The translations under genes were made by a program, and so were the position numbers. Below are positions 12,002 to 39,170 of a DNA stretch of 64,000 bases, one piece after another. Under the pieces are notes generated by a model. The model saw only the letters and a program-made list of their open reading frames with translations. It did no database searches and was not told the DNA's origin. This stretch comes from Argopecten irradians (Eukaryota > Mollusca > Bivalvia > Pectinida > Pectinidae). Numbering within the stretch: position 1 is the stretch's first letter; each line of letters starts with the position of its first letter. Location: NCBI RefSeq assembly GCF_041381155.1, contig NC_091142.1:40101604-40165603 (forward strand). The letters are read 5' to 3'.

Positions 12002-13957
12002 ACAAGAGATCCCAGAGGGATCTTGGCGCCCACCAAAGAATGATCTATGTCTGACAAAGGAAAGAGGGATCTTTTCTCTGCTTTTCAAACTTTTGCAAAC
12101 ATATTACATATAAAATTTGAGACAGATCGCTTCAGTACTTTCTGAGAAACAGCAGTAACAAACTTCAACTATCAAAATCCAAGATGGCTCCTTGGCGGCC
12201 ATCTTGTTGATCGATCGGTCCCAAATCGAAATATGCACAGCTAGGGCCCTAGGGGAACCTATATATGAAATTTGAGACAGATTCATTCAACACTTTCTGA
12301 GAAATAGCGATAACAATCTTTAACTATCAAAACCCAAGATGGCAGCCTGACGGCCATCTTGTTGACCGATCGATCCAAAAACGCATTATGCACAACTAGA
12401 GCCTTAGGGGAATCCACATATAAAATTTGAGAAAGATCCCTTCAGTACTTTGTGAGATATAGCAATAACAATTTTTAACTACCAAAATCCAAGATGGCTG
12501 CCAGGCGGCCATTTTGTTGACCGATCGGTCCCAAAACGCAATATGCACAACTAGTGCCCTAGGGGAACCTACATATGAAATTTGAGAAAGATCCCTTCAG
12601 TACTTTGTGAGATATAGCGATAACAATCTTTAAGTATCAAAATCTAAGATGGCTGCCTGGCGGCCATCTTGTTGACCGATTGGTCCCAAAATGCAATATG
12701 CACAACTAGGGCCTAAGGGGAATACACATATAAAATTTGAGAAAGATCCCTTCAGCACTTTGTGAGATATAGCAATAACAATTTTTAACTACCAAAATCC
12801 AAGATGGCTGCCTGGCGGCCATCTTGTTGACCGATCGGTCCCAAAACGCAATATGCACAACTAGTGCCCTAGGGGAACCTACATATGAAATTTGAGAAAG
12901 ATCCCTTCAGTACTTTCTGAGAAATAGCGATAACAAACTTTAACTATCAAAATCCAAGATGGCTGCCTGGCGGCCATCTTGTTGACCGATCGGTCCCAAA
13001 ACGCAATATCGCAACTAGAGCCCTAGGGGAACCTACATATGAAATTTGAGAAAGATCCCTTCAGTACTTTCTGAGAAATAGCGATAACAAACTTTAACTA
13101 TCAAAATCCAAGATGGCTGCCTGGCGGCCATCTTGTTGACCGATTGGTCCCAAAATGCAATATGCACAACTACGGCACTAGGGGAACCTACATATGAAAT
13201 TTGAGATATATCCCTTTTGTACTTTCTGAGGAATAGTGATAACAAACTTTAAGTATCAAAATCCAAGACGGCTGCCTGGCGGCCATCTTGTTGACCGATT
13301 GGTCCCAAAATGCAATATGCACAACTAGGGCCCTAGGGGGAACCTACATATGAAATTTGAGAAAGATCCCTTCAGAACTTTCTGAGAAATAGCGATAACA
13401 AACTTTAACTATCAAAATCCAAGGTGGCTGCCTGGTGGCCATCTTGTTGACCGATCGGTCCCAAAACGCAATATCGCAACTAGAGCCCTAGGGGAACCTA
13501 CATATGAAATTTGAGAAAGATCCCTTCAGTACTTTCTGAGAAATAGCGATAACAAACTTTAACTATCAAAATCCAAGATGGCTGCCTGGCGGCCATCTTG
13601 TTGACCGATTGGTCCCAAAATGCAATATGCACAACTACGGCACTAGGGGAACCTACATATGAAATTTGAGATATATCCCTTTTGTACTTTCTGAGGAATA
13701 GTGATAACAAACTTTAAGTATCAAAATCCAAGACGGCTGCCTGGCGGCCATTTTGTTGACCGATTGGTCCCAAAATGCAATATGCACAACTAGGGCCCTA
13801 GGGGAACCTACATATGAAATTTGAGACAGATCCCTTCAGTACTTTCTGAGAAATAGCGATAACAAGAATTGTTAACGGACGGACGGAAGGACGGACCACG
13901 GACCACGGACAAAAAGCGATTTGAATAGCCCACCATCTGATGATGGTGGGCTAAAAA
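12002..13957 (+). mobile_element. Helitron/Helentron-like non-autonomous element A with tandem array
   Basis: The 5' end has a hairpin, AAGAGATCCCAGAGGGATCTT, followed by GGCGCCCACCA. The centre is a tandem array (about 12110-13870). The array is followed by a (GGAC)n tract, then a 3' hairpin GCCCACCATCTGATGATGGTGGGC and CTAAAAA. GCCCACCA near the 5' end is complementary to TGGTGGGC near the 3' end. A hairpin followed by CTRR is the usual Helitron 3' signature. No Rep/helicase is present. The element at 27516-31314 has the same plan. Confidence 0.65.
12110..13870. repeat. 155-bp tandem array, about 11 units
   Basis: Each unit holds CCAAGATGGCTGCCTGGCGG, CCATCTTGTTGACCGATCGG, a GCACAACTAGGGCCCTAGGG segment and ATGAAATTTGAGAAAGATCC. 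Successive AAGATGGC motifs are about 155 bp apart. Each unit also contains its own inverted repeat (CAAGATGGC...GCCATCTTG). The stretches 13033-13245 and 13498-13710 are almost identical and 465 bp (3 units) apart. Confidence 0.85.
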
Positions 13958-15044
13958 TCGCAAAATGACTCCAGCTACTTTTAAGCTTCATCCAAACGTT
14001 TACATAGAGTAAGCCAGAATACTAATGAAGGGAGAGGATTGACATATACCGCCTCCAGGCCCAGGAATGTTGGAGATTTACAAAAGTAATATTAACCTTA
14101 CACTGTATATGTATATATCAACAACTTAAGAAGTGACATGGAATAAACAATGATTTATTAACTTAAAGTAACATTTAATTATTGCAAATAACAAGAAATC
14201 ATAACTTCATTACAACACTTGTCGTATAAATAGTATTCCTCACAACATTTAATAATTATCTGTACATACATGTATGTATCCGTTCATGATATTGCTGTGA
14301 TAATCGATTTTGAGTTTCTTGAGCGATACAATCAACATTTGTTTCCAAATCTAGTCAATACCGTGATCTATAACCCAAACATCAAGTTGGCAGCCTCTAT
14401 TTGAAAGTCTAGTAATTCAATGATATACTGAAAATCGCTTAATTTTTGCGAGATTTCGCGGTGAATTCAGACGTCTCATGATGTATCAATTAGAAAATGT
14501 AGATATCTTTAACTGTCCTTGATGGCGATTTTTTTTTTTTTCGTGAATATGCTCAAATGAACGAAGACACTAATAATAGTACTATATATTACGCAAAAAA
14601 AATGATTTGTAGTAAATGGCGACAAATGTTGTTTTTTCCCAATCTACGACTGATTCAGCTTCCATACCAACTTCTGTGAAAGTATTCATTTTCAGTGCTT
14701 GAAGCACCCAAGAATATTGAGAGCTAAAATATGATGGCGCCCATTTTATTTTCTGTAGGATCGTAAATATAGTAATGACAATATTTTGGCGAATTCATCA
14801 TTTGGCTTTCTTTTTGAAAATCAATTTTGTGCTAAAATGTTATTGGACCAAAATAGATTTTACGGTATTTCGGATGACGGGTGCTTTATGACACGTAAAG
14901 CGACTTGTCTTAGTAATGAATTTAATTAACATCGTAAACAGGTCAGTTCTTGGACTGAAACAAACATATTGCAAATAACAACCCACATAAAAGAACTACT
15001 CTCAGTAGCTATCAAAAGAAACATTGCAAACCTTGTACAGTACT
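13958..15044. other. Intergenic, no feature seen
   Basis: AT-rich sequence with homopolymer runs (for example near 14530). I see no supported gene or repeat. Confidence 0.5.
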
Positions 15045-15727
15045 TAATGCGTCTAACATTCCCTCAAATGCGTTTTAGATTCGTTTGCGTTTCTTTCGTT
15101 TAGTTTCGTTTGCGTTTTGTTTCGTCGAGCGTTTTTCGTTTGCGTTTCGCGTTTTCGTTCGTTTGCGTTTCGATTCGATTTCGTTTGCGTTCGTTTGCGT
15201 TTTGATTCGTTTTGGCTTTCGTTCGTTTGCGTTTGCGTGCGTTTGCGTTCCAATTCGTTAACCGGATGTTATTCATTGATATTTGATTAGGAATGGTTGA
15301 CTGCGCATGTGTTGGCTAAACTAAAAGTGGAGTCAAACGACGGTGTAGGCCGATAAATTTACGTGTTCTGGACAATGTAGTAAACATACACAAATAAATT
15401 AAAAAAAAATCCTTTTGTATATAGACATTAATTACATTTGATACGTGTAACCTGTGAAATAGACATCGCTTTCAGAATCCGGATCACTAAGCTACCGATC
15501 CCGATCGACATTTATGATTGCATTCTGGTCTTCCGGTCACGCTTTCACTTCGTTTACGTTTTTCGTTTTCGTTTGCGTTTTTCGTTTTGCGTTTAGCGCT
15601 TAACGAAACGCGTTTTTCGTTTTAAGCTATTCGTTTTTCGTTTGCGTTTTTCGTTTTCGTTTGCGTTTTCGTTCGTTTTCGTTTAACTGCGTTTCGCGTT
15701 CGTTTCGAGGAATGTTAGACGCATTAG
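15045..15727. mobile_element. TIR element filled with CGTTTG-type repeats, 0.68 kb
   Basis: The ends are inverted repeats: AATGCGTCTAACATTCC at the left and GGAATGTTAGACGCATT at the right, both flanked by AGTACT. Just inside each end lies 100-180 bp of degenerate CGTTTGCGTTTTCGTT simple sequence, in the same orientation on both sides. The centre (15260-15540) is unique-looking. Open frames here are products of the simple repeat. The family is unknown to me. Confidence 0.6.
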
Positions 15728-15865
15728 TACTGCTGTAGATATTGCTCTATTTTAATGCGTTTTCATTTAAAGAGCAGGGCTCAGTTGTTTAAAAGGTGAG
15801 TGGGTTAGTCACAGTTTAACGGCAATTTTCAAATGAAGATGAAATAATTTCTGGTAATACAAATT

Positions 15866-16150
15866 AAAGGGCCACTACCTTTCCGAAACGGCTTTTAATT
15901 TTTAAAATAGGAATGTAAAACGAGATCAATAATTTTGTAGAGTCGCAGAAGTTATTAACTATACGTTTACTAGCACACTTATCATCACCTTCAGAACTGT
16001 TTAATTATAATAAATAAAATATTAATTTTCATAACGCGGGTCGTTTTATGTTTCCCGCCGTCGTCCTAAATGCCGCGCGGTAGTTGACTATCACTGCGCC
16101 ACACGGCAAAACAGCGAAATGAATCTCCACTGTTATCGTACATTAGACAG
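15866..16150 (+). repeat. Dispersed repeat related to 45345-45655
   Basis: The stretch TCATAACG ... TTTCCCGCCGTCGTCCTA ... CGCGGTAGTTGACTATCACT matches TCATAACG ... TTTCCCGACGTCGTCCTA ... CGCGGCAGTTGACTATTACT at 45420-45480. It is a single copy of the segment that is amplified there. Confidence 0.6.
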
Positions 16151-16427
16151 GAAATCTTGCATATGTTTGGTGTTGTAACCTCATCTTAAGCCATCGATAT
16201 ATATTTTCTTTTGGTATTAATGTTTGTTGTTAGATTGTTAGTGAAGATATCATCACAAATTTCAAAGCAAATGAGAAATTAACATTTCACTAATCGTGTG
16301 ATTAAACTAATCATCTTTGTAACAACCGGGCCCAGGTAAGTAATCTTCGTTTTAACGAGGCGATATGTAGAAAATAATAAATGAAAATAGTAACAACAAT
16401 AACTAAACACTCTACATCACAGGATAA

Positions 16428-16590
16428 ATGACGCCATGTGGTACTGACTTCGACATATTAATGACGTCAAGTGATCCTGACTTTGACATATCGATGACGT
16501 CATGTGATACTGACATTTACATTTTAATGACGTCATGAGATCCTGACTTTGACACGTTAATGATGCCATCTTATTATGACGTTAACACGT
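16428..16590 (+). repeat. 33-bp minisatellite carrying TGACGTCA sites
   Basis: Units begin at 16428, 16461, 16494, 16527 and 16560 (period exactly 33): ATGACGTCATGTGATCCTGA, then CTTTGACATATTA. Three units keep a perfect TGACGTCA (CRE/ATF palindrome) or one base off it (TGACGTCAA context). The last unit is partial. Any regulatory role is speculation. Confidence 0.8.
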
Positions 16591-18913
16591 CATTATGATT
16601 GGCTTAAATAGTAAATTAGAAACAAAGTAATCTTTAATTAATACGATGAAAATATTGAAATTTAAAGTGCTTTAAACTTTAACACTAAACACAACTACAG
16701 TTCCGCTGAATGAGAAGATAAACCATTAAGAAGAGATTAGTTTTAGTATAGATTTAAATATCGAAATATATGTACATATATTTATCATCTTACATGAAGG
16801 TACATCATGTGTGAAAATTCTTGCGGACAAAAATAAATATTGCCGACGAAAACCTGACAATAGCGACAAAACTGATTTAATGTATTTCAAACAATGACTA
16901 AACTAACTTGCATATTATGCTTTCAGCGATGCTAGTTTGCATTATCCTTAAAATACACATGTATAGTTAATTCTTTACCAAAAACTTGTAAGAAATAATG
17001 TCAGATACATGTACAATACATACTGTAACTTATCAGTCCTAATGATTACCTTCGACGTATAAAATAATAACAAAGCAACATCAATGAAAACAATTTTACA
17101 ACTACCAAAACGTTTCTCTTCTGCAATAAAAAGACTAGACATATAGTTATTGTATAAAGGAATGTAAACTTTTCTTTCACAGTAATAATGTATATACTAT
17201 ATAGTGGAAATAGACTCAAAATTAACTTTCCATGAACAGATTATTTAAATGAACATTTTATAATCAAACTTTATCTATAAACACATACACACAATTTAGT
17301 ATTTGCAATACCAACAGTACGGCAGACATGTAACTTTAAAAAGATACAAAATACAAACAGAATCAAAGGACTTACATTTAAAACAAACGAAAATGAAACA
17401 GAAGATTTTTTTATAAAATAAGATCGTGCTATCTTAATAGCAAATAACGTACTGTACGTGTACTTATTTTAGCGATATTCTAATAATTTTCACGCCTTTC
17501 GAGTTCAGGTCATTGCTCTCAATTTTGTCAGAATTTTGTCATCACATGAAGAATTAGAGGATATCCTTTGTTTCTTGATGAATTACACCAATTCTATTTC
17601 ATCGAGTGAGGTGGAAACGAGTCGTATTTTTGTGAGCATAACGTCATATATCTACACAAAATATATGACGTCATCTTTGTGCACAAACTAATGACGTAAC
17701 AATCAAAATGGTATTTTCACTGTCAAAAGTGCATTGCGATTGGTCAAAGGTGAGTGAAAATATCTCTTTTATGTTCACCGTAAAACCTTATATTTCACTG
17801 TGAAAAAAGTAATAAAACAAAATATATGGATGCGCAGTGATAACACGAATCCAGGACAGCTCTATTAAGTCAATAACCCTTCATGGCGAGGAACATTTGA
17901 ATGTACTAATTTAAGTACACGTACATTAATAACTTAAAAAATAATTTACTCGCATAGAAAAAAAGTAACAAAACAACACAATGAAATACGTAGTTACGAT
18001 CGATAACGCCGATAATAATTCAATGGAATCATTTTTAGAGAATAATAAATTAAGATTATCATAAACAACCATTATAAATAGCTTTTATTATGACTATTAA
18101 CATGGAATAAATATTGTATATCAATTGTGTCAATATAGATAATCGACTATGGCAATATAGAGTTGACTAGTTATAATGTAGGCAGTATTGTAGATTTACG
18201 ACAATCTGGCTACGTTTTAATATAGCACAGGGATTAAAAACCTATTTTCATCCCCTGCGTTATGTGAAATATGACATGGTGACAATCAGCAGTGTGATTA
18301 CATATAATGTTAGTAGTGTAATTCTGGGTAGGCGACGATGATAACCGGGAATTGTTGTTTTTAGCACTGGGATATGGATTGCATCAGGAGTTGATTTGGA
18401 CTTTGTAACCGATAATAATCATTATTTAAATAAAACTGTTTTGAGTACAGAGTCTCATCAAAGCACCAACATGACTTACAATAAATAGAAGCCATCTAAT
18501 CAACACCCTTACACTACAGAATTCTGTATTGCATAAAGTTCATTTGTATTTGTAATTGAACAGGAACAAGTGAGGGATAATATATAACTTATTGTTGGCC
18601 TTGATTCTCGGTAATATTTTATGAAAACACTGACTATATCAAATCTTAAAAGGATCAGGTAACTGTATTTGCTGCATATTAGGATTGTCTGATCTGGCGG
18701 GTAGATACTGAATGCTAGTTACGGCATCAGTTATGCGAAAAATACGTTACATGTATTTTCTTTGAAGCAAAATGGCGTTACGTTCACAAACCTGACGTTA
18801 ATCACTATAATGATATGCAAGTCTTAGATAAAATTGTCAAATAGACTAAAGCAATAAATTTCTAATTAAAATGCGTTAAAACACACCCAGGAGACTATTA
18901 TAGTATCTAGGTC
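16591..18913. other. Intergenic, mostly featureless
   Basis: It is AT-rich. The one structure I see is a small palindromic piece at about 17600-17720 (GCATAACGTCATATAT / ATATATGACGTCAT, then AATGACGTAACAATC), related to the TGACGTCA hairpin elements at 6831 and 58947. Part of this region may be 3' UTR of the zinc-finger gene. Confidence 0.45.
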
Positions 18914-19092
18914 CAGTGTCACAAACATTCCTTAACTTTAATGAAATGCTGAACTTAAACGTCTCCATAAAAAAGCATTACAGGTTTTAAGGCTGGCTCT
19001 TAAGAGTTTTTCCTAAAACTTCTGTAATGCTTTACTATGGAAACCTTCAAGTTTAAGGAATACCGTATCATTAAGGACTGTTCGTGAAACTG
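18914..19092. mobile_element. Hairpin MITE beside the zinc-finger gene stop
   Basis: An imperfect palindrome of about 180 bp with ends CAGTGTCACAAACATTCCTT and AAGGACTGTTCGTGAAACTG and inner arms AAAAGCATTACAGGTTTTA / TAAAACTTCTGTAATGCTTT. It begins 42 bp past the stop codon of the zinc-finger gene, so it is probably transcribed in that gene's 3' UTR. Confidence 0.65.
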
Positions 19093-19133
19093 AACTCTGC
19101 TTGCACACAATGCCGTTATCTGATGTTGTCTGT

Positions 19134-22100
19134 TTAAACAAGCTTGCTGTGGAATCTATTCATATGCCTCACCAGTTGTGACCCACTTTTGAATTTAGCC
19201 TTACATATAGTACAGATTTCCAGGCTGTCCAGACTATGTGTCTTGTGATGTCTGTGTAAAGCACTCTTCCAGGCAAAAGACGAATCACAACGATCGCACT
19301 TGTATGGCTTGTCTCCCGTGTGCGTCCTGTAATGGTCGTCATGGTTATGGCGGTATGCAAATGATTTCCCACAGACGTCACATGTGAAAGGTCTTTCTCC
19401 TGTGTGAACCCGCATGTGTAATTTGACAGATTCCAGATATGGAAATCTTTTCCCGCACGTTTTACAGCTGTAGGGAAGCCTACCAGTATGAGCCATCATG
19501 TGGATTCTCAACCCGCTGGCAAAGGGGAAAGTCTTCTCACAAATTTCACACTTGTATTTCAACATCCTTGCTTCTTTTTCCCTTTTGGCCTTTGACATCA
19601 GCTCATCTGGGCGAAAGTGCAGTGCATAGATGTCCATCGCGTCTTTCGAATGAACCCTTAAGTGAATTTTTAAACCTATCGAAGAGATGAAGCCTCTACC
19701 GCATAACTTACACGTAAGCTTTTCGTCAACTGCATCTAAAGTATTGGCCGTTTCTTTTACATCAGTCTTCATTTGCGTGCTATCTGCGGTCGGAGAGGGT
19801 AATTCGGTAGAGATCACGGGTGACGTTGCTGTGTCACTTTCAAATGGAATTTGATGACCGGAGGGTTGGGTAACTATGTTTGGTGTGACGCAAGACTCTT
19901 TCTTCAATTCGGTACAGCGTACCACATTAGAAATCAACAAAGAATCGCTATCAGAAAATTCTTTCTTTATTGTTCGGTTCGAGTCTTCATTCAGTAATAT
20001 GTTCGATTTATCTCCACTTTCGATTTCATTTTCTCCTTCACGACTAGTTCCATTGATACATGTGATGTTTGATAACAATACTGGATTAGTCGGTAAGGTT
20101 TCAGATTGCACATTATCTACTTCCGATGGCTTTGTTTCAATTCTATTAACTTGAATGTATATACCGAGATCATCCTGCAGCTGCATTTTTTCATTTAATA
20201 TATTCTGTATAGATTTTGGTAATATGGAATCTGAAGAAAGTCCGTTGGTCACTGGGTGAGAAATGTCGAGAGAAGATTCGGTAGATATTTCCGCTGTTTC
20301 TGGAGATAGTCCGTTGGTTACTTGGTGAGAAATGTCAAGAGAGGACTCGGTAGATGTCTCCGGTGATACTTCTTTGTGATATTTCTCATTATGGTACATC
20401 AATGTTTCCATATTTGCAAAAACAGCTTGACAGTCATGACATTTATATACGACTGACTTGACAAACTTACAAGTTTTCTTTTCCTTGTGAGCCGCCCAGT
20501 CGGTCCGGCGCCGGAAATCCCTCCCACAGACGTCACATTTGAATGGTTTAGTAATGGAATGTGTCTTCACATGACGATGTAGCCCACATCTCCAGGCAAA
20601 GGAGGCGTCACATAGACTACAGACGTAAGGTTTAATGCCGTCATGCGCTCTCATATGATCTTCTAATAGACTTTTAACTTTGAACGCTTTAGGACAAACA
20701 GTACATTGAAACGGTCTGATATTTGTATGAACCCTTGAGTGTACTATCAGATCAGTTTTTCGTGAAAATGCTTTCTTACATATCTCACATGTGTGGGCCA
20801 TTTCTTCAAAATGTTTCCGGACGTGGATATGGTAGTAAGACATACTCAGAGAATTGCCACAAATTTCACAGTTCACCATTTTCTCATCAGACATCAATTT
20901 TTCCAAAGTTTTTGCGCGTCCACTTTCACTCTGCTCTTTATCCATTGAAATGGTCACTTGACGTTTATGACACTTCAGGCCTTCGAGATCAAGATCACCC
21001 ACAGATCCATTATGTATTGCATTTGCAAGTTTCGGTTTTAAACAACGTTTCGGTGAGCTGCCGTTGATGACGGAAGATTTTGCTTTCTTTCTGTCGCAAA
21101 GTTTCTTGCTTAGCAGACGCTGCAAATCTTGGTTCAAGTGCGTCCGTTTGCCTCTGGTATAAGGAAGTTTGCCAGAATCCGGATTTGTTTCTTGTATTAT
21201 GTGGTTCAAATATGTCTCTTTTTGTGTACAGCTTGGAACCATTTCATGAGTTGTGTTGTTTGCAAGCGTCTCCATTTGTGCGCCGTTTGGAACCATTTCT
21301 TTTGTTGGGTTGGTTACTAATGTCTCAAAGTGGCCTTCGTGTGACGTTATATACATACTAGCTGTACCTTCATACAGATTATGGTCCGTATACTTCTCTA
21401 CCGGTTCCTGTTTTATTATCACAGTATCAGTAGAGAGGTTATCGTTTGACTTAGCTTGGTCTGTGGCATCAGCTGCTTGATCCGTATTTATCATACCTAG
21501 TCTACCGTTCCGAGAAGACGAGCGTGTGGTAGGAGATACGTGATCTCTTTTGTGTTTATTTAAATGTTTTTTATTCGTAAATCGAGCTCTACAATCTCCA
21601 AAATCACATATATAATGGTGATCATACAAATGCGTCTTTTCGTGTTTTACAAGATCATGCTTTCTCCAGCATTCATAAGTGCATATTGAACATGCGTAAG
21701 TTTTTGGTCCTGTTGAATGAAGTCGTTTGTGTCTACTGAGAGCACATCTCCAGGAGAATCTAGCATCACACTTGTCACATTGGTATGGCTTGTGTCCTTT
21801 ATGGGCTTGAGCATGGTCCTTCTGACGGCTTTTAGTTGCAAAACCTTTCCCACAAATTTTACAGACGTACGGTTTTTCGCCTGTATGTGATCTGTAATGA
21901 ACTTTGAGAGCTTCTCGCTGAGCAAAATCTTTATCGCAGATGCAGCATTTGAATGGTCTCTCTCCATTATGAATTCGCATATGAGCACCTAAATTGTAAA
22001 CACGTTTCCCGCATATCTCGCACGAGAATGGCTGTGGGCATAGTTTTGCGTTGCTATCTACTGTTGCTTTGAAGATCATGTCGTTAGAGGATTTGATTTC

Positions 22101-23015
22101 ATTACCTTGAATTTCTTCTACATTAACGTATACAGTATCAGCTGTAGATTTGTCATTTGCCTTAAATAATTCGGATAGATTTTGTACTAGGCAGCAGTCA
22201 TCGTCAAAAGAAATATTGGTGTTGGCTATTTCTGAGTTTTCCGAGATTCTATCTGCCAGGGTAGAGTCTGCAATCTCACCAGAACTCTTCGTGTTAAATA
22301 TTACGGAACTCTCTGTATGAAGTCCTTGTTCCTCTTGAATCATGGAATGTACAGTGTTTCGTTGTCGTTCCTGTCGACGATGTGATCTCATGTGATATTC
22401 ATACAAATTCTTCTTTTCAAATACTTCATCACAAATATCACACCTGTATGATTGCTTTGAGGAATGAATTTCTTTAAGGTGCCTTGAAAGATTCCAGCTG
22501 TTATTGTAGGTCCTGTGGCAAAGATGACATGGGAATGCTTTACTACCATTCTTGTGTCTTTGTTGGTGTCGATAAAATGCATGGTACCATGTGAAATCCA
22601 TACCACACTGATCACATATATACGGCCTCCGTCCGGCATGTGCAGCCATGTGGTCATCATAGTTCACCTTCTGAGAAAGTTCTCTCCCACAAATGTTACA
22701 TTTGTACAATTTAGCTTTGTCCTCCATATTCTCGTGCATCTTTTCATGCTTGATAAGCCATATTTTGCTGGTGAATTTAAACTTACATGTTTTACAGTTG
22801 TACTGCTTCTTTTCTTTTGACTTCTTCCTCTTGCCTCCTACGATATGGGTCTGTGTGTAATAAGGTCGTGAGACGGGTCGAACTGGAGCAATGTAGTTAG
22901 CATACTTATCTGGTTCTAGTATTTGTCCATTTACCACAGATGTTATGTGGTCAGACTCGTCCGTACACGCGTCAATCTGCTCTGTTTTGACCTCCACAAG
23001 ACCACTTGGCTCCAT
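19134..23015 (-). CDS. C2H2 zinc-finger protein, 23 fingers, 1293 aa
   Basis: One uninterrupted exon encodes a probable nuclear DNA-binding protein. Start is MEPSGLVEVKTEQ, and an acceptor AG at 23087-23088 just upstream implies a 5' UTR intron. Fingers come in four clusters: 5 at residues about 72-215, 6 at 330-490, 6 at 712-881 and 6 at 1100-1290. Most have the C-x2-C-x12-H-x3-H spacing with TGEKP-like linkers; finger 6 is short, finger 11 has a widened C-C spacing and finger 16 ends in Cys (C2HC). Each cluster holds one pair in which a finger ending in a DHxxxH-type motif is followed by one with FxW before RHxxxH. Linkers are acidic and serine-rich, with SUMO-type sites (VKTE, IKQEP, IKKEF). 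There is no KRAB, BTB or ZAD domain. DNA target and role are unknown. Confidence 0.93.
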   Translation of the reverse strand: MEPSGLVEVKTEQIDACTDESDHITSVVNGQILEPDKYANYIAPVRPVSRPYYTQTHIVGGKRKKSKEKKQYNCKTCKFKFTSKIWLIKHEKMHENMEDKAKLYKCNICGRELSQKVNYDDHMAAHAGRRPYICDQCGMDFTWYHAFYRHQQRHKNGSKAFPCHLCHRTYNNSWNLSRHLKEIHSSKQSYRCDICDEVFEKKNLYEYHMRSHRRQERQRNTVHSMIQEEQGLHTESSVIFNTKSSGEIADSTLADRISENSEIANTNISFDDDCCLVQNLSELFKANDKSTADTVYVNVEEIQGNEIKSSNDMIFKATVDSNAKLCPQPFSCEICGKRVYNLGAHMRIHNGERPFKCCICDKDFAQREALKVHYRSHTGEKPYVCKICGKGFATKSRQKDHAQAHKGHKPYQCDKCDARFSWRCALSRHKRLHSTGPKTYACSICTYECWRKHDLVKHEKTHLYDHHYICDFGDCRARFTNKKHLNKHKRDHVSPTTRSSSRNGRLGMINTDQAADATDQAKSNDNLSTDTVIIKQEPVEKYTDHNLYEGTASMYITSHEGHFETLVTNPTKEMVPNGAQMETLANNTTHEMVPSCTQKETYLNHIIQETNPDSGKLPYTRGKRTHLNQDLQRLLSKKLCDRKKAKSSVINGSSPKRCLKPKLANAIHNGSVGDLDLEGLKCHKRQVTISMDKEQSESGRAKTLEKLMSDEKMVNCEICGNSLSMSYYHIHVRKHFEEMAHTCEICKKAFSRKTDLIVHSRVHTNIRPFQCTVCPKAFKVKSLLEDHMRAHDGIKPYVCSLCDASFAWRCGLHRHVKTHSITKPFKCDVCGRDFRRRTDWAAHKEKKTCKFVKSVVYKCHDCQAVFANMETLMYHNEKYHKEVSPETSTESSLDISHQVTNGLSPETAEISTESSLDISHPVTNGLSSDSILPKSIQNILNEKMQLQDDLGIYIQVNRIETKPSEVDNVQSETLPTNPVLLSNITCINGTSREGENEIESGDKSNILLNEDSNRTIKKEFSDSDSLLISNVVRCTELKKESCVTPNIVTQPSGHQIPFESDTATSPVISTELPSPTADSTQMKTDVKETANTLDAVDEKLTCKLCGRGFISSIGLKIHLRVHSKDAMDIYALHFRPDELMSKAKREKEARMLKYKCEICEKTFPFASGLRIHMMAHTGRLPYSCKTCGKRFPYLESVKLHMRVHTGERPFTCDVCGKSFAYRHNHDDHYRTHTGDKPYKCDRCDSSFAWKSALHRHHKTHSLDSLEICTICKAKFKSGSQLVRHMNRFHSKLV

Positions 23016-23369
23016 TCTGACGCTTTCCGTGACTTCTTAGCTAACAGCGACGTAATCCTGGGTCTTTTCTCCACTCCATTCTGAACCTGAAAGTATATAA
23101 AACATTTGTCATGGACGTGGTAGATAATTAAACTCAAGGACTTATTGTTTCTTCGAAAGGTCGTGGTGACTGGAGCAAGTTACTCTCAACATTGACTATA
23201 AAATGATATGTAAGACAAAAACCTCACCTTCCCCATCCCCTAAATTTGCAACCAGACAGAATGGACAAATGGTAGTACTATATCATATCGCCAACACCCC
23301 CTCTCCTATTCCAATCAACTGTTTTAAAACTTGTTGACTAGTGGTGTTCTTTTAAAATGTCATGTATAC
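23016..23369 (-). other. 5' UTR exon part and intron of the zinc-finger gene
   Basis: The minus-strand acceptor TATACTTTCAG ends at 23087, so 23016-23086 is 5' UTR and the sequence to the right is intron. The first exon and promoter are not identified. Confidence 0.5.
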
Positions 23370-23590
23370 TTTCACCTAGCCGCCGGCGTTCCATCCCCGA
23401 CATGGACGTAAAAAGGTCAGGGGTCACCTGCCCGATCATGTGGGTTTTCCCTGGGCACTCCGGTTTCCTCGCACACTAAGACCCCTCACGCCCTTACATC
23501 CGGGCCATCTAGAGTGATTTATATAAGTTGTGTAACTTGTTTCTCAATCGATATAAAATAAATAAAGTTTATATTGTATGTATACTTTGA
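23370..23590 (+). repeat. Dispersed repeat fragment ending in A/T-rich tail
   Basis: A GC-richer block (GGTTTTCCCTGGGCACTCCG, GTTTCCTCGCACACTAAGAC, CATCCGGGCCATCTAGAGTG) is followed by AATAAATAAAGTTTAT. The base composition is unlike its surroundings and the tail resembles a retroposon or SINE end. The assignment is from memory of mollusc repeats and is tentative. Confidence 0.4.
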
Positions 23591-23765
23591 TCACTGACTC
23601 AAACTGGTGCCATCCTCCATTTCAATTTTCGGGTTTTAAACATGGTTACACCACTGAGTTCCCCTGAATAGCCAAACACCTGTATGGGGAAGAATTTTCA
23701 GTATGGTTTATGAATGCTCCTTAAACGTGAATGCATAACTATGAACACAAATACAAGAATCTATG

Positions 23766-24707
23766 TAGGGCTGAAACGATTAGTCGAATAATCGGAGGCG
23801 ATTAGATTAATGAAGCTAATTGCTGATAATCGATTAAAGATTTTATTAATCGTTAATCGTAACATGCATAGCCAGTGCATTGTAAGCTGACTAAGTTAAA
23901 CACGTTGACAGATCATGGATTTCTGAGTAAGTCATTCCGACTGGAGTTTCATCTCTTTATGTACATGTTTTGAACTCAACAAAGCATATATGATGTGAGA
24001 AATACTTGTTAAATTACGTCTCTGTGGAAGTTAAAGTCATTAATCAATGAAAGTGGATGTCATGAGAAAGCTTGCAACACGCTGTTCGCCAATTTTCACT
24101 AGCGATCGACTCCATGTTGTTACGTCACGGAGGCCTAATCGCCGCCGGGACGCTCGGGAGCGGAAGGAGCAGTAATCTTGAACATTTAAATTTTACTATT
24201 GCATGTGTTTATCATATAAAAAAGATTGTTTTTGTTCATATTCTAATTGAATATAAGAGTTGTTGATTTATTTTATTTTTTTGATCACGGAAATAAAAAA
24301 GTTCATTGACGAAAATTTGGTCATGTCGCTTCGTGGCGATCCAAATTTGGTTGATTAGTCGTACGTGTGAAGGTCACGTCAAAACAGCGGGTTAGCAGAC
24401 TTGATTTAAACGATGTTACGGAAGACGATATAGGAACGGAATTCAGAGCTTATTTGGGATAAAATACGTTTGTTTTGTCAATAAATCTATTCTTATTTGT
24501 TGGTAAGCTTATATTATGTAAGGCATGTCCTCTGTCATATTATACGGTAGGTGTTATTATTAGTTGATAACAAAACATGGCGGACGTTTTCAGTAGTCAG
24601 TAGTTGAAAAAATATAGTTGCCTTCAATTCAAACGATTAATCGATTAGTAATCGATTACATGTGACCGAATAATCGAATACAAAAATTACTAATCGTTTC
24701 AGCCCTA
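23766..24707. mobile_element. Non-autonomous hAT element, complete, 942 bp
   Basis: The ends are TAGGGCTGAAACGATTAGT and ACTAATCGTTTCAGCCCTA, followed inward by AATCGATTAATCG-type repeats on both sides. A perfect 8-bp target duplication, AATCTATG, flanks it (23758-23765 and 24708-24715). TIR and 8-bp duplication are diagnostic of hAT. The interior has no transposase frame. Confidence 0.9.
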
Positions 24708-24993
24708 AATCTATGTCACAAAAAATGATCCATTTCATAATTTCTGTTACATTGTAGTATGGTTTATGAAAACCTGAATTATCAAAATTTATTTGTTTGC
24801 ACTAGGGCATATCCCTTTACAGTGCGCAAAGATATTTTTCTTTGTGAAGTTATCAACATTTAAAACAAATAGGTAATATTATGATATAACAATTTATATG
24901 ACAATTATGAATAATTCAGCACTTTTCTAAGATAATAAAGCAATGAAATGTACATTATGCAACACATTTCCATGAGAGATTCAATAAAAATCT

Positions 24994-25339
24994 TTAAATC
25001 AGAGCATAAATGATATCCATCACTTGAACAATAATTGGTGTTTAATTGTGTATAAACATGTCTAATTAACACAAAAATAAATAATATAAAATAACTTATT
25101 TCGCCTTTGATGCATGCCCAATCAGTACTTCATTCCATATAGGATTTAGTGCCACAGAATTTTTTTTCGGGATGCAATTAATTATTTTCCATATCTTTAA
25201 CTTCAAGTAGAAACTCAAACTTTTCAATGGTGGTATAGTGTACAATAAGTAATTTTTGTAACTGAAGAAAATTACTAAATCGTCTGCTCCTGTTTTTGAT
25301 GGTGAAAAATGCCATTTGTCAGCAGTGGAGCATCTTTAA
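24994..25339. mobile_element. TTAA-flanked MITE, copy 3
   Basis: The same internal order as the copy at 42476 (GAACAATAATTGGTGTTTAA and onward), ending GTCAGCAGTGGAGCATCT then TTAA at 25336-25339. The left TIR has lost most of its sequence after TTAA at 24994. Confidence 0.75.
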
Positions 25340-25351
25340 TGATTTCAAAGG

Positions 25352-25489
25352 CACTTTACGCCATTCTCACAGAGACTTAACGCCATTCTCACAGAGACTT
25401 TACGCCATTCTCACAGAGACTTTACCCCATTCTCACAAGGACTTTACGCCATTCTCCCAGGGACTTTACCCCATTCTCACAGGGACTTG
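25352..25489 (+). repeat. 22-bp minisatellite, 6 units
   Basis: Units CGCCATTCTCACAGAGACTTTA start at about 25359, 25381, 25403, 25425, 25447 and 25469. The array begins directly after the right end of the MITE at 24994-25339. Open frames crossing it are repeat artefacts. Confidence 0.85.
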
Positions 25490-26303
25490 GCATGAATCTC
25501 CAACCAATGGTCAATCTACATTGTATATTATTATGGACAAGCATTCCTGAAATGCTGTCAGGACATTGTGAAAGCGCTTCAAATTTAAATTTTGTCGAGT
25601 CATTTTATTTTTTCTACATGTATGGAAATATATATATTGACTGTTGGTTGTCAAGTGCCATTTCCAAGACCTCCAAAGTACTATGTAGCACAAAGGTAGT
25701 ACCACCTTTACATTGTTCTTTTTGTATGGACCAACATCAGTGGGCTGAGGAAAAAGTACAATATTGATTGGAACCAGTTATAAAATCTACTGTTTAAATA
25801 CTAATTACTCCTGACCAGGACTGTAGATACCGCTGTGATATCACGTGGGTAAACATCCTAGGTATTGACCAAAATCAACAAATCATTTGAAACTTTCACT
25901 ATTTGATTTCTATGTGATACTACAAGCTGTATAAACATTAACAGGGAAATTAAAACAGAAAATTAGTCTGAAGGTAAACAAGTACTATAAGACCTTAGTT
26001 TTTATCGAAAAAGTTTATTGACAGCTTGTTTTATCAGTTTTCCAAGGTAGTGGACATAAATTTATATATGTACATGATGTATACATGATATATATGTACA
26101 TGATATATAGCTTGTGTCAGCATTGATATTCTGCAATCATATACAATGTACCAACAGGATATAAAGTAAATGCATTAATCTTGTACAGTCACTGCTATGT
26201 ACAATTTATCTTGATTTTATCATCTTCTAATAATGTATTTAAACAAGAGTATTATACTTAACTCAATAAGGTCAGTGAAATCCTCACTATTCATATTATT
26301 GCA
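25490..26303. other. Intergenic, no gene seen
   Basis: AT-rich; a short degenerate ATATATGTACATGAT repeat at 26065-26108 is the only structure noted. Confidence 0.5.
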
Positions 26304-26489
26304 TAAAAGAGCGAGTCCAACACGGTAGTTCCTTCCAGTAAGCTGATTTTTTAATCAGATATTGTTGACATGTTTCGACTCTAAGCGAGTCACCCTCAGA
26401 ACTCGCCTAGAGTCGAAGCATGTCAACAACTATCTGATTAAAAAATCAGCTTACTGGAAGGAACTACCGTGTTGGACTCGCTCTTTTAT
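26304..26489. repeat. Palindrome with ~86-bp arms and ~10-bp loop
   Basis: The left arm TAAAAGAGCGAGTCCAACAC... reads back as ...GTGTTGGACTCGCTCTTTTA, meeting around the loop CACCCTCAGA near 26391-26401. The arms differ at only a few positions, so a long hairpin could form. Probably a foldback-type MITE. Confidence 0.85.
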
Positions 26490-27419
26490 ACATTTACCTC
26501 GATTCCAAGTGAGGCCTCTGTATTCTTTTGAATCCACGGCCGGTTCCATCAAGAATTTTTCTATAACCCAGGACGTTGCGCCTCCACCCCCCGTAGTGAT
26601 TACTCATATTATTATGAACTATTGAGGGCAGTAGTGACTCTTATTTAGTGTTTTCCATGATTAATTCGACTTTCTGGTTCATAAGAGTAATATCCATTTC
26701 AAAACACACAGGTTATAAGTAGGTAGATAGGTGTTTACTAGCTCATGTTATTGATGTACCGTATTTGACCCAATTTATGTCAAGGTAAGTGAAATAGAGG
26801 CCTCAAATAGGGGAGGTGATTTTATAGGGATAAGGGCGTTTGTTTGGTCAAATACATAATGTCATTTTTCAGAAAATCAACAAGAAGGACTAAACAGTTA
26901 TTCAGCCTTTATCAGTGCTTATTAATGAAGTTAAAGCCAATTAGAGTTCTCAACTAATGGGAGGCAACTAGTAGTAGGAATTGATTTCATTTTCAAATCG
27001 GTGATAAAAATCTGTTTTCAAAGTTTGAAATGGCTGTACCATTACAGGAAATAAGTGTAACTGTTGTTTCTTGTTGTTTCTTTAATACTAGACAGTAACC
27101 ACTATATAGCATATCATCAAACATGTAGTAAAATGTACATTGTATGTCATTGTGTGTTTTATATCAGACTCAGGGGGAGTTTTTCTTTGTGCTTGGAAGT
27201 TTTGTGTGGGAATGAATTCAGGCCATTTATGAAGATCTGCCAAATATATCTAAAGCTGGTGAAGTAAAGTTCACAATACTATTTTGAAATGATGATATAT
27301 ACATAATTTCTAATTGTGTCCTTGTTTACTTCTAGAGGATAAAAAAGTATCTGTCCCAAAATTGGAGGATTTCAAGCATGCTGGTTCAGATCCACTCTCT
27401 ACCGTTGTGTTAAATCAAA
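26490..27419. other. Intergenic, no gene seen
   Basis: I find no supported gene; short open frames here lack coding character. Confidence 0.5.
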
Positions 27420-27515
27420 CTGGAATGGTTTGGTTAGATTAGCGTCCCATTAACAGCCAGGGTCATTTAAGGATGTCCAGGTTTGTTGGTGGAGGAAAGC
27501 CAGAGTACTTAAAGA
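27420..27515 (+). repeat. Left part of a dispersed repeat split by Helitron-like element B
   Basis: It contains TTAGCGTCCCATTAACAGCC, GGTCATTTAAGGATGTCC and GGTGGAGGAAAGCCAGAGTA, matching in its first part the fragment at 11570. The right part resumes at 31315 (GGTCAGTACCTGGCAATTGC, then CACATAGGATTCAAACTCAC). The joined order is that of a common mollusc repeat as I recall it. Confidence 0.55.
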
Positions 27516-30500
27516 ACAAGAGGCCCAGAGGGCCTGTATCGCTCACCTGGTTTGTAATGCCAAGTAATGTTCTGAATACAGGTTCATTGTTTCTTTTCTG
27601 AAGGAATTTTAATATTAACCTCTAAATCCCCTATTGGGCCCCACCCCTCCCGCCCCCAGGGGGTCAGAGCCAAAATTTATACAAGTTCTGTTCCCCTTCT
27701 TCCAAGGATGTTTATGGCCAAATTTGGTCACAATCCAAACAAAACTCTAGGACAAGAAGTGATTGATAGGATTTACCTCTATTTCCCCTATTGGGCCCCA
27801 CCCGTCCTGCCCTCGGGGGGCCAGAGTCAAAATTTATACAAGTTCTGTTCCCCTTCCCCCAAGGATGTTTGTGGCCAAATTTGGTTACAATCCATGCAGA
27901 ACTCTATGACTAGTAGCGATTTAAAGGATTTACCTCTATTTCCCCTATTGGGCCCCGCCCCTCCTGCCCTCGGGGGTCAGAGCCAAAATTTATACAAGTT
28001 CTGTTCCCCTTCCCCCAAGGATGTTTGTGGCCAAATTTAGTTACATTCCATTCAGAACTCTATGACTAGTAGCGATTTAAAGGATTTACCTCTATTTCCC
28101 CTATTGGGCCCCGCCCCTCCTGCCCCCGGGGGGTCAGAGCCAAAATTTATACAAGTTCTGTTCCCCTTCCCCAAAGGATGTTTGTGGCCAAATTTGGTTA
28201 CATTCCATTCAGAACTCTATGACAAGTAGTGATTTAAAGGATTAACCTCTATTTCCCCTATTGGGCCCCGCCCCCCGCCCCTCCTGCCCCTGGGGGATCA
28301 GAGCCAAAATTTATACAAGTTCTGTTCCCCTTCCCCCAAGGATGTTTGTGGCCAAATTTGGTTACAATTCATGTAGAGCTCTAGGACAAGTAGAGATTTA
28401 AAGGATTTACCTCTATTTCCCCTATTGGGCCCTGCCCCTCCTGCCCCCAGGAAGTCAGAGCCAAAATTTATACAAGGTCTGTTCCCCCTCCCCCAAGGAT
28501 GTTTGTGGCCAAATTTGGTTACATTCCATTCAGAACTCTATGACTAGTAGCGATTTAAAGGATTTACCTCTATTACCCCTATTGGGCCCCGCCCCTCCTG
28601 CCCCCTGGGGACCAGAGTCAAAATTTACACAAGTTCTATTCCCCTTCCCCCAAGGATGTTTGTGGCAGAATTTGGTTACATTCCATTCAGAACTCTATGA
28701 CTAGTAGCGATTTAAAGGATTTACCTCTATTACCCCTATTGGGCCCCGCCCCTCCTGCCCCCGGGGGATCAGAGCCAAAATTTATACAAGTTCTGTTCCC
28801 CTTCCCCCAAGGATGTTTGTGGCCAAATTTGGTTACATTCCATTCAGAACTCTATGACAAGTAGTGATTTAAAGGATTTACCTCTATTTCCCCTATTGGG
28901 CCCCGCCCCTCCTGCCCCTGGGGGATCAGAGCCAAAATTTATACAAGTTCTGTTCCCCTTCCCCCAAGGATGTTTGTGGCCAAATTTGGTTACAATTCAT
29001 GTAGAGCTCTAGGACAAGTAGAGATTCAAAGGATTTACCTCTATTTCCCCTATTGGGCCCCGCCCCTCCTGCCCCAGGGGGTCAGAGCCAAAATTTATAC
29101 AAGGTTTGTTCCTCCTCCCCCAAGGATGTTTGTGGCCAAATTTGGTTACATTCCATTCAGAACTCTATGACTAGTAGCGATTTAAAGGATTTACCTCTAT
29201 TTCCCCTATTGGGCCCCCCCCCCTCCTGCCCCCCGGGGGACCAGAGCCAAAATTTATACAAGTTCTGTTCCCCTTCCCCCAAGGATGTTTGTGGCCAAAT
29301 TTGGTTACATTCCATTCAGAACTCTATGACTAGTAGCGATTTAAAGGATTTACCTCTATTTCCCCTATTGGGCCCCGCCCCTCCTGCCCCCGGGGGACCA
29401 GAGCCAAAATTTATACAAGTTCTGTTCCCCTTCCCCCAAGGATGTTTGTGGCAAATTTGGTTACATTCCATTCAGAACTCTATGACAAGTAGCGATTTAA
29501 AGGATTTACCTCTATTTCCCCTATTGGGCCCCGCCCCTCCTGCCCCGGGGGATCAGAGCCAAAATTTATACAAGTTCTGTTCCCCTTCCCCCAAGGATGT
29601 TTGTGGCCAAATTTGGTTACATTCATTCAGACTCTAGACAAGTAGGATTTAAAGGATTTACCTCTATTTCCCCTATTGGGCCCCGCCCCTCCTGCCCCGG
29701 GGGTCAGAGCCAAAATTTATACAAGTTTGTTCCCTTCCCCAAGGATGTTTGTGGCCAAATTTGGTTACATTCCATTCAGAACTCTATGACAAGTAGCGAT
29801 TTAAAGGATTTACCTCTATTACCCCTATTGGGCCCCGCCCCTCCTGCCCCGGGGGACCAGAGCCAAAATTTATACAAGTTCTGTTCCCCTTCCCCCAAGG
29901 ATGTTTGTGGCCAAATTTGGTTACATTCCATTCAGAACTCTATGACTAGTAGCGATTTAAAGGATTTACCTCAATTTCCCCTATTGGGCCCCGCCCCTCC
30001 TGCCCCCTGGGGACCAGAGTCAAAATTTACACAAGTTCTGTTCCCCTTCCCCCAAGGATGTTTGTGGCCAAATTTGGTTACATTCATTCAGAACTCTATG
30101 ACAAGTAGCGATTTAAAGGATTTACCTCTATTTCCCCTATTGGGCCCCGCCCCTCCTGCCCCCTGGGGACCAGAGTCAAAATTTATACAAGTTCTGTTCC
30201 CCTTCCCCAAAGGATGTTTGTGGCCTAATTTGGTTACATTCCATTCAGAGCTCTATGACAAGAAGCGATTTAAAGGATTTACCTCTATTACCCCTATTGG
30301 GCCCCGCCCCTCCTGCCCCCAGGGGGTCAGAGCCAAAATTTATACAAGTTTATTCCCCTTCCCCCAAGGATGTTTGTGGCCAAATTTAGTTACATTCCAT
30401 TCAGAACTCTACAACAAGTAGCGATTTAAAGGATTTACCTCTATTTCCCCTATTGGGCCCCGCCCCTCCTGCCCCCGGGGGATCAGAGCCAAAATTTATA

Positions 30501-31314
30501 CAAGTTCTGTTCCCCTTCCCCCAAGGATGTTTGTGGCCAAATTTAGTTACATTCCATTCAGAACTCTATGACTAGTAGCGATTTAAAGGATTTACCTCTA
30601 TTTCCCCTATTGGGCCCCGCCCCTCCTGCCCCCAGGGGACCAGAGCCAAAATTTATACAAGTTCTGTTCCCCTTCCCCAAAGGATGTTTGTGGCCAAATT
30701 TGGTTACATTCCATTCAGAGCTCTATGACAAGTAGCGATTTAAAGGATTTACCTCTATTACCCCTATTGGGCCCCGCCCCTCCTGCCCCCAGGGGGGCAG
30801 AGCCAAAATTCATACAAGTTCTGTTCCCCTTCCCCAAAGGATGGTTGTGGCCAAATTTGGTTACATTCCATTCAGAACTCTATGACAAGTAGCGATTTAA
30901 AGGATTTACCTCTATTTCCCGTATTGGGCTCCGCCCCTCCTGCCCCCGGGGGACCAGAGCCAAAATTTATACAAGTTCTGTTCCCCTTCTCCCAAGGATT
31001 TTTGTGGCTAATTTTGGTTACAATCCATGCAGAACTCTAGGACAAGTAGCGATTTATAGGATTTACCTCTATTTCCCCTATTAGGTCCCGCCCCTCCTGC
31101 CCCGGGGGGTACAGAGCCAAAATTTATACAAGTTCTGTTTCCCCTCCCCCAAGGATGTTTGTGGCCAAATTTGGTTACAATCCATGCAGAACTCTATGAC
31201 TAGTAGCGATTTAAAGGAAATGTTGACGGACGGATGGACAGACGACGGACGGACGGACCGACGGACGCCGCGCCATGACATAAGCTCACCGGCCCTTCGG
31301 GCCAGGTGAGCTAA
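27516..31314 (+). mobile_element. Helitron/Helentron-like non-autonomous element B with tandem array
   Basis: The 5' end CAAGAGGCCCAGAGGGCCTG forms a hairpin and is followed by GCTCACC. A long tandem array follows, then GACGGACGGATGGACAGACG and more (GACG)n, and finally a 3' hairpin (GCTCACCGGCCC / GGGCCAGGTGAGC) and CTAAAAA. The 5' GCTCACC is complementary to the 3' GGTGAGC. The plan is the same as element A: CCCAGAGGG hairpin, inverted subterminal block, ~156-bp array, GACG tract, hairpin, CTAAAAA. No replication protein is encoded. Confidence 0.65.
27560..31220. repeat. ~157-bp tandem array, about 23 units
   Basis: Each unit contains GATTTAAAGGATTTACCTCT, CCCCTATTGGGCCCCGCCCC, CAGAGCCAAAATTTATACAA, CCAAGGATGTTTGTGGCC and TTACATTCCATTCAGAACTC. 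The units are highly similar, with small indels in the C/G runs. These indels generate long spurious open frames. Confidence 0.9.
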
Positions 31315-31470
31315 AAACCATTGACTATAGGTCAGTACCTGGCAATTGCAACTGCCCCACATAGGATTCAAACTCACACCTAAAGGTAAAGGGCTTGTGG
31401 CTGGGCTCACACTAACTTTCCAGTCACCAGACACGGATGCAAACAAAGTGGATGCAGAGTGGGCAGTATG
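31315..31470 (+). repeat. Right part of the split dispersed repeat
   Basis: It resumes the repeat interrupted at 27515: GGTCAGTACCTGGCAATTGC, ACTGCCCCACATAGGATTCA, AACTCACACCTAAAGG. The boundary with the Helitron-like element is CTAAAAA|CCATT. Confidence 0.5.
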
Positions 31471-38278: not shown

Positions 38279-39148
38279 GGCCTAGCTAGGTGGTATGAAG
38301 CTGTGTATGTAAATATAAACCTCATGAATAACCACCGTCACTATCCTTACACCCCTTGTAGAATAAACAAAATGTCTCCGTGACAAATATACTGTAACCT
38401 CACCCGTAAAACAGTATTCACCTCCATTTTTGAATACTTAGCCCACAGGCGTCTGCTTCTGATTTGATGAAAATATAAAAACCTACCTCTACTATATGGT
38501 AGGACATTGTATTTTTCCAAAACCAGATGCAGACGCCGGTTGTGACTTAGCCTAGACGCTAGCACACACCACAACTTCCGCCAATCCCCCCCACACCTTT
38601 CCAATGTTTACTCCATCCCAACTCGCACCGATAGTAATATACATATATATATAGCTAACACCAAGATTTAATATGCATAATTCGAACTGCATAGATATAA
38701 AAAGAATCTCTCAATCCGAAAGATATGATATTCCTACCGGCTACGACGAATCAGAGTTGCTTCCCCTCGTTTCACTCAACTCTGATACACTGCGCATGCC
38801 TAGAAAATGGACTACCTACAACCGATAAATACGTATTAGTCAATAACGTGAGTAACTTATAACTATAGTGATCCCACAGACAGGGATCTGAGAATAAGTT
38901 ACAGTTTATTATTATATAATATCAGAGATTTAAATCTCTGATAATATGGACCCATCAGAGTACAATTGACTATTTTAGACGTCTTAGGGGTCAAGATCAA
39001 AAATCGGTAAAATCATATTCTACATTGTACATAAAAACAGGTCTTCACAAAAACGGTTACTGTCGTTAGAAAGAGTCATAATTTTCTTTTCAAAATCACC
39101 ATACACAATTATACAAAGTCTTATAATATTGTTTCATTTCAATTTCAG
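38279..39148 (+). repeat. Tandem duplication, copy 2 (upstream region of the synthetase gene)
   Basis: This copy directly precedes the synthetase coding exon. The donor-like AATAAC|GTGAGTAACTT ends an exon at 38847 and the acceptor AATTTCAG ends at 39148, implying a ~300-bp 5' UTR intron. The promoter probably lies in or upstream of this segment. Confidence 0.8.
38800..38847 (+). other. Candidate non-coding first exon of the synthetase gene (3' part)
   Basis: The donor GTGAGT at 38848 pairs with the acceptor at 39148. The exon start is unknown. A second version lies at 37897 in the upstream duplicate and could serve as an alternative first exon. Confidence 0.35.
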
Positions 39149-39170
39149 ACGCCGTGCTTCATCAGCAAAT

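Follow-up and report, generated by a model that had tools for sequence, protein, structure and literature searches.

Two nonautonomous Helentrons on the minus strand

The window, by which we mean the whole stretch of 64,000 nucleotides analyzed here (C9:40101604-40165603 of the bivalve Argopecten irradians, NC_091142.1; C numbers denote contigs and L numbers sampled loci), carries two array-bearing mobile elements, E1 (12003..13957) and E2 (27517..31317), after which types 1 and 2 of such elements are named. An initial annotation, made from the sequence alone, had described both as Helitron-like, which is right in the broad sense; their anatomy, however, is that of HINEs, i.e., nonautonomous Helentrons, and their strand had been taken backwards. 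The individual features it had listed were recovered, namely, the AAGAG motifs (from 12004 and 27518), GGTGRGCTAAAAA on the CTAAAAA side (13945-13957 and 31305-31317), the GACG tracts, both hairpins, and the central arrays with periods of 155 and approximately 157 bp. Both elements lie on the minus strand, with the CTAAAAA side as the 5′ end and the AAGAG side as the 3′ end. The inverted subterminal block that had been noted also exists, but it is really the 3′ subterminal inverted repeat (subTIR), which pairs in sequence with the 5′ subTIR.

E1 (locus L001) is a complete type-1 HINE with its 5′ end on the 13957 side, where the boundary is approximate within the terminal Ts (13953-13957, As on the plus strand). 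On the minus strand, its 5′ subTIR and the inverted copy form a perfect 12-bp hairpin, TAGCCCACCATC/GATGGTGGGCTA (13926..13953), followed by a GTCC/CGTCC microsatellite corresponding to the former GACG tract (13875..13910, borders set by eye), a central array of 11.4 units of 155 bp identified by tandem-repeat detection (12105..13865), a 3′ subTIR core reading GGTGGGC, which is a copy of the inner arm of the 5′ hairpin (12028..12034), and the 3′ palindrome GATCCC-TCT-GGGATC with the terminal CTCTTG (12003..12022). E2 (locus L009) is a complete type-2 HINE located inside a dispersed SINE-like repeat, with its 5′ end on the 31317 side. Its minus-strand features are the 5′ subTIR and inverted copy in the hairpin AGCTCACC..GGTGAGCT with inner GGCCC/GGGCC (31284..31312), a CGTC microsatellite (31225..31267), an array of 23.0 units of 157 bp (27614..31218), the 3′ subTIR CCAGGTGAGC (27541..27550), and the palindrome GGCCC-TCT-GGGCC with the terminal CTCTTG (27517..27534). 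The two elements therefore share one minus-strand order, TTTTTAGC[CT]CACC, inverted copy, GTCC-type microsatellite, array, matching 3′ subTIR, palindrome, and CTCTTG, and the paired subTIRs measure 8 bp in E1 and 10 bp in E2. The 5′ hairpins fold strongly, with z scores of −8.2 (E1), −6.9 (E2), and −5.6 for a third family, F3, described below; the corresponding 3′ ends fold more weakly (−2.7, −1.1, and −2.4). The 3′ palindrome typical of HINEs is thus present in both elements, with a weak folding signal in E2. Conserved folding of the array monomers was also considered and dismissed (z = −1.6 to 0.1).

A genome-wide search with the Rep profile PF14214 yielded 104 matches, approximately 60 of them strong; none was located inside E1 or E2, as anticipated for elements without a transposase of their own. 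The E2 array holds two open reading frames of 194 and 274 amino acids, which appear to be readings of the repeat. E1 and E2 are newly described families of a class that is itself already known, very abundant, and protein-less.

Abundance, pairing of ends, and insertion sites

The whole genome (845.8 Mb) was scanned for the end motifs, as the initial annotation had proposed, with the reversed pattern serving as the control. Every motif was found far above the control: AAGAGNNCCCAGAGGG at 3,903 places (control, 3), GGTGRGCTAAAAA at 8,015 (control, 19), and the intact 5′ hairpin of the E1 and E2 types, TTTTTAGCYCACC-N6..20-GGTGRGCT, at 5,331 (control, 0). Loci L017 to L076 were obtained with two motifs, as the first 30 matches of each along contig C1, and include 1.5-kb flanks; because the flanks extend only this far, the complete elements within these loci are short ones. 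In total, 46 distinct 5′ ends were available, 11 from loci fetched by whole-element similarity, and hence biased, and 35 from end motifs or incidental loci.

The ends and arrays proved to be closely coupled. All 27 type-1 5′ ends lead into type-1 arrays, and the 19 type-2 5′ ends lead into type-2 arrays (13 cases), arrays of a family termed B, closely related to type 2 (4 cases), or no recognized array (2 cases); the 5′ end and its array were always on the same strand, and the 35 unbiased 5′ ends (21 of type 1 and 14 of type 2) agree with the full set. The 52 3′-end matches comprised 35 of type 1, 34 with type-1 arrays and 1 with F3 as the best array type; 8 of type 2, 5 with type-2 and 3 with type-B arrays; 2 of F3 type, one with an F3 and one with a type-B array; and 7 outside these rules, 4 of which are look-alikes within type-1 arrays. 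In 20 of the 23 complete elements in the sampled loci, the 3′ subTIR core matched the element's own 5′ type exactly over 7 bp, the remaining three having one, two, and three mismatches, and the core of the other type was seen in none. An exact inverted copy of the 5′ subTIR was likewise present in 20 of the 23. Look-alike 3′ ends in L004, L006, and L007 are array internal and were left out of this set. As a separate observation, some type-1 array units (in L003, L004, L006, L007, and L008) contain CCCTAGGGCTCTTG-TTG, which mimics the 3′ end of the element. The sole candidate mosaic is at position 1004 (+) of L064, where an F3-type 3′ end adjoins a type-B array.

Within the sampled sequence, empty-site relatives were found for 4 of the 23 joined flank pairs, those of E2, L010, L024, and L078. 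All four insertions had occurred in a T run, with no other target duplication; for E2, the empty site is represented by uninterrupted copies of the SINE-like repeat. Filled sites had two more Ts than empty ones in six of 11 comparisons and three more in two; the runs were equally long in one, and in the remaining two the filled site was shorter by one T. The number of terminal Ts assigned to the element is therefore approximate. The type-1 HINE at L024 is hosted by an unlabeled dispersed repeat that also has copies in the window, at 42505-42645, 25006-25151, 6367-6515, and 10439-10580.

Period and length of the arrays

Eight array families picked from the sampled loci (E1, E2, F3, A, B, C, D, and G) have consensus monomers of 145 to 161 bp. 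In the C1 sample, the rows reported by Tandem Repeats Finder (TRF), which are partly nonindependent because several loci overlap, had a period of 155 to 157 bp in 36 of 42 type-1 cases (others, 143, 144, 144, 149, 163, and 163) and of 156 to 157 bp in 7 of 12 type-2 cases (others, 112, 146, 151, 153, and 177). A drifted 163-bp unit in L028 and L071 was rejected, the TRF period being 163 but the consensus only 157 nucleotides long. The initial annotation had named widely varying periods, or ends that do not occur together, as observations that would speak against a common architecture; the ends do co-occur, and the periods remain near 145 to 161 bp.

Array length changes by whole units, as indicated by the many genomic E1 matches that stop at query positions 1400, 1554, and 1709. 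At C9 and again at C510, an E1-type HINE lies upstream of an encoding Helentron frame (see below), the two copies having their 3′ flank in common. The C9 copy is complete, 480 bp long, and without an array of two units detectable by TRF; in the C510 copy, the array comprises at least 7.0 units and runs past the sequence read. If the two are one old insertion copied together with the Helentron, the array length changed after insertion. Some type-2 arrays are satellite-like, overlapping E2 matches implying arrays of approximately 8 kb at C7:46050155-46058675, C11:42404727-42413283, and C1:69934524-69942300. At C1:5414116-5430923, six intact type-2 5′ hairpins follow one another on one strand at distances of 3,354 to 3,357 bp; therefore, whole elements or a larger unit are repeated head to tail.

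Relatedness and phase of the array monomers

The initial annotation had regarded the array sequences of E1 and E2 as unrelated, a view contradicted by monomer alignments, though the direct likeness of the two is faint. Doubled monomers were aligned locally, independently of rotation, and compared with dinucleotide shuffles. On the same strand, E1 and E2 scored 169 compared to 116 ± 12 for shuffled sequences, a value reached in 0 of 500 and then 0 of 400 shuffles (0 of 900 in total; z = 4.5); on opposite strands, no such score was obtained. E1 and F3 scored 177 (0 of 500 shuffles; z = 4.7). Comparison of the eight families brought out one clear group, consisting of E2, A, B, and G (z = 6.5 to 21), the local z scores of E2 versus A, B, and G being 12.5, 9.2, and 7.0. 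Family C joins it in the opposite orientation as drawn (E2-C, z = 6.0; B-C, z = 6.2). E1 and F3 constitute a second group, and the E1-E2 pair bridges the two. Arrays of 145 to 146 bp in L029, L045, and L052 (TTTGACCCC..AAGGTCA) can be aligned to E2 monomers as well, again in reverse of the way they are drawn.

In a further test, the phase was fixed by the structure of the element, with the anchor left out. Within groups, the phased scores were high (E1-F3, z = 5.6; E1b-F3, 6.5; E2-I, 6.1; E2-J, 5.7). Across groups, they ranged from E1b-I (3.6), E1-E2 (2.7), E1-I (2.4), and E1b-E2 (2.2) down to E1b-J (0.9), F3-J (0.6), E1-J (0.4), and F3-I (0.4). The phased E1-E2 alignment has 64% identity and was equaled by 7 of 1,000 shuffles. 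When the E1-group profile was compared to the E2-group profile at fixed phase, z was 3.9, a result equaled in none of 400 column shuffles (dinucleotides not being preserved), and the best six of 25 profile rotations were all within approximately 24 bases of the structural phase. Judged from these alignments, the monomers within each group surely share one ancestor, and those of both groups probably do. Given this probable shared descent, the near-equal periods of 155 and 157 bp need no further cause.

A third family sharing its 3′ end with an encoding Helentron

F3 passengers resemble E1 and E2 in architecture, with a 5′ hairpin TTAGGTCRTCTGACC..GGTCAGGATGACCTA, a CGTC microsatellite, and a 146-bp array; intact F3 5′ hairpins were found at 2,130 genomic places (control, 0). 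One element, at C13:36697092-36697805, combines the 5′ hairpin of F3 with its 3′ end.

The open frame at C9:37382274 comprises 3,067 amino acids, 1,387 of which were read. Profile matches indicate a Rep domain (PF14214; E = 2.7e-26), a PIF1 helicase (E = 2.8e-18), and a C-terminal endonuclease domain whose matches are weak (PF03372, E = 8.5e-4; PF14529, E = 0.006), and the Rep part additionally shows similarity to Helraiser (E = 3.7e-9). With these predicted domains in one frame and in the Helentron order, the C9 encoding element is a Helentron. The 3′ flank of this element terminates with GGTAGTCAGATGACC-GTTAA-GGCCC-TTT-GGGCC-TCTTG; a T run adjoins this end, and a short array of 146-bp units precedes it. 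This 170-bp F3 3′ end lies at matching distances from the Rep start at C9 (6.93 kb), C607 (6.92 kb), and C510 (6.95 kb). In the search for it, C9, C607, and 38 others of 2,154 candidates were scored; at 31 of the 38 other places, the match reaches the last or next-to-last base, and many of these stand behind 146-bp arrays. Thus, as judged by sequence, one array-bearing HINE family, F3, has its 3′ end and its array in common with an encoding Helentron. The initial annotation had envisaged an autonomous relative with the same ends; a Rep element with the 3′ end of the sister family F3 was found, but at the four Rep places whose 3′ flanks were covered, none carried the subTIRs of E1 or E2.

The full or almost full Helentron 3′ flank adjoins Rep at C9, C607, C15, C510, C14, and C126. 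It also occurs at C393 without a Rep match, at 70 to 71% identity beside four sister Rep places, and as short pieces on C3, C183, and C90; on array-bearing HINEs, it was found at none of the 20 candidates scored. Nor was the F3 5′ hairpin seen near a Rep copy at any of 40 places scored of 1,380 candidates. At C626, 3.3 kb of sequence did not include a 3′ end for the 43-191 Rep group, and the 851 bp covered at C11 did not extend to that of the sister Helentron. Helentron 3′-flank pieces also recur every ~3.95 kb at C3:40533996-40554207, forming a tandem array of a large unit.

Proposed mobilization of the elements and origin of the array period

Taken together, we consider E1 and E2 to be trans-mobilized Helentron passengers whose arrays descend from one in-phase ancestral monomer and have inherited its period, a reading to which we assign a probability of roughly 0.86. 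A protein with Rep, PIF1 helicase, and endonuclease domains would move both in trans as single strands, recognizing the subterminal hairpin at the 5′ end and the matching subterminal repeat and the palindrome at the 3′ end, and would place them into T runs without target duplication. The ancestral monomer would have followed the 5′ microsatellite in this shared phase, and the arrays may grow and shrink by whole units, also after insertion. Rolling-circle transposition of E1 and E2 is suggested by analogy to the known family, and the same or a related protein presumably serves both.

Several results weigh against this interpretation. An encoding element with E1 or E2 subTIRs was not found, the 3′ flanks being covered at four of the approximately 60 strong Rep places, C9, C607, and C510 with the F3 end and C626 without it. 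Neither the 5.2 kb preceding the C9 frame nor 2.1 kb at C510 yielded a 5′ end for the encoding F3 element. Both endonuclease matches are below the curated Pfam cutoffs (19.6 versus 24.5 bits and 16.9 versus 27.4 bits). A genome search yielded no empty site for E1, which lacks an empty relative because its flanks are unique in the genome. As for the monomers, local alignments were not significant for E1 versus A, B, C, and G (z = 0.4 to 1.4) or for F3 versus A, B, C, D, and G (z = −0.5 to 1.8), the phased E2-F3 score was low (z = 1.2), and family D had no clear link to any other of the eight families.

The faint E1-E2 similarity and the D array (L049, 156 to 157 bp), which is without clear kin, would be more readily explained if conserved ends had repeatedly taken up unrelated satellite monomers, as the initial annotation suggested and as has been proposed, in the published description, for group 2 of the oyster Cg_HINEs (PMC7492417); the F3-type 3′ end beside a type-B array in L064 would fit as well. 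Such modular exchange is nevertheless quite improbable, since types 1 and 2 were mixed in none of the 46 5′ ends and none of the 23 complete elements, only 1 of 35 type-1 3′ ends has F3 as its best array, F3 itself being kin of type 1, and monomers of different families align in phase. The other suggestion of the initial annotation, a length constraint, here taken to mean that nucleosome packaging or the transposition machinery keeps the unit at about 150 bp while the sequence is free to change, would account for the 145- to 161-bp monomers of all eight families. It would also agree with the 138- to 181-bp range given for oyster HINE clusters (PMC7492417), and the nucleosome idea has appeared in print for oyster Helitron repeats (PMC8268682). 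Since descent alone predicts similar lengths, and since the type-2 TRF rows include periods of 112, 146, and 177 bp, although these are short and weakly matching, we regard a length constraint as possible but unlikely. A rather doubtful idea is that the array belongs to the Helentron by inheritance, standing just inside the 3′ end of both the Rep element and its passengers with phase and orientation fixed, and that its length has been kept at approximately one-third sequence divergence because each unit acts in transposition, be it in spacing, in packaging, or as a weak terminator copy.

Canonical Helitrons start with TC, end with CTRR, and insert between A and T. They belong to the rolling-circle class, and in the direction of the initial annotation, a 3′-looking hairpin does stand beside CTAA. 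However, the empty sites show T-run insertion, the ends are TTAGC...CTCTTG with paired subTIRs at both ends, and the Rep/helicase of the sister family bears a predicted endonuclease; with both ends and target wrong, a canonical Helitron is extremely improbable and was rejected.

In the Pacific oyster, the Cg_HINE order is described as 5′ subTIR, complementary inverted repeat, microsatellite, repeats, 3′ subTIR, and palindrome (PMC7492417). By this description, E1 and E2 resemble Cg_HINEs, which likewise have a GTCY-type microsatellite, T-rich insertion without target site duplication, and several families, in some of which the flanks are related but the arrays differ (PMC7492417). In that study, the group 2 arrays are called unrelated, whereas here the arrays of several families align in phase; its authors were also unable to connect any of ten autonomous oyster elements with the Cg_HINEs (PMC7492417), whereas F3 and a Rep-helicase-endonuclease element have the same 3′ end. 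Pearl elements of other bivalves, as described there, similarly carry arrays of ~160-bp repeats between conserved ends (PMC7492417). DINE-1 and HINE-Mo, with their partner Helentrons, are comparable in subTIRs, inverted repeat, 3′ stem-loop, microsatellite, and optional central repeats, as well as in TT preference, variable terminal Ts, and a Rep/helicase/endonuclease partner (PMC4067079). Judging from the same account, they differ in subTIR length (11 to 15 bp, versus 8 to 12 bp here) and in being >95% identical to their partner, whereas sharing here was seen for the 3′ end and array only (PMC4067079).

With the identity and direction of E1 and E2 settled, the notion of unrelated cores with a common period is replaced by descent from a common monomer, and most of the surprise is dissolved. 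The link of a HINE family to an encoding element via 3′ end and array should be useful to the field, having been sought but not found in the oyster study; we found no earlier report of such a link for an array-bearing HINE in mollusks in the open-access literature. In view of the in-phase monomer homology, HINE arrays currently described as unrelated may in some cases be anciently related.

Other features of the window

Two neighboring frames for AMP-binding enzymes are located at 39129-40808 and 46645-47787, a C2H2 zinc-finger frame of 1,293 amino acids at 19134-23015 (minus strand), and a galactosyltransferase frame at 50836-52254. Irregular short tandem repeats rich in CGTTTT occupy 15078-15684, and ~116 copies of the 30-bp unit GACTACAATAACTTTTGTTTTTTACCGTGA extend over 53036-56506.

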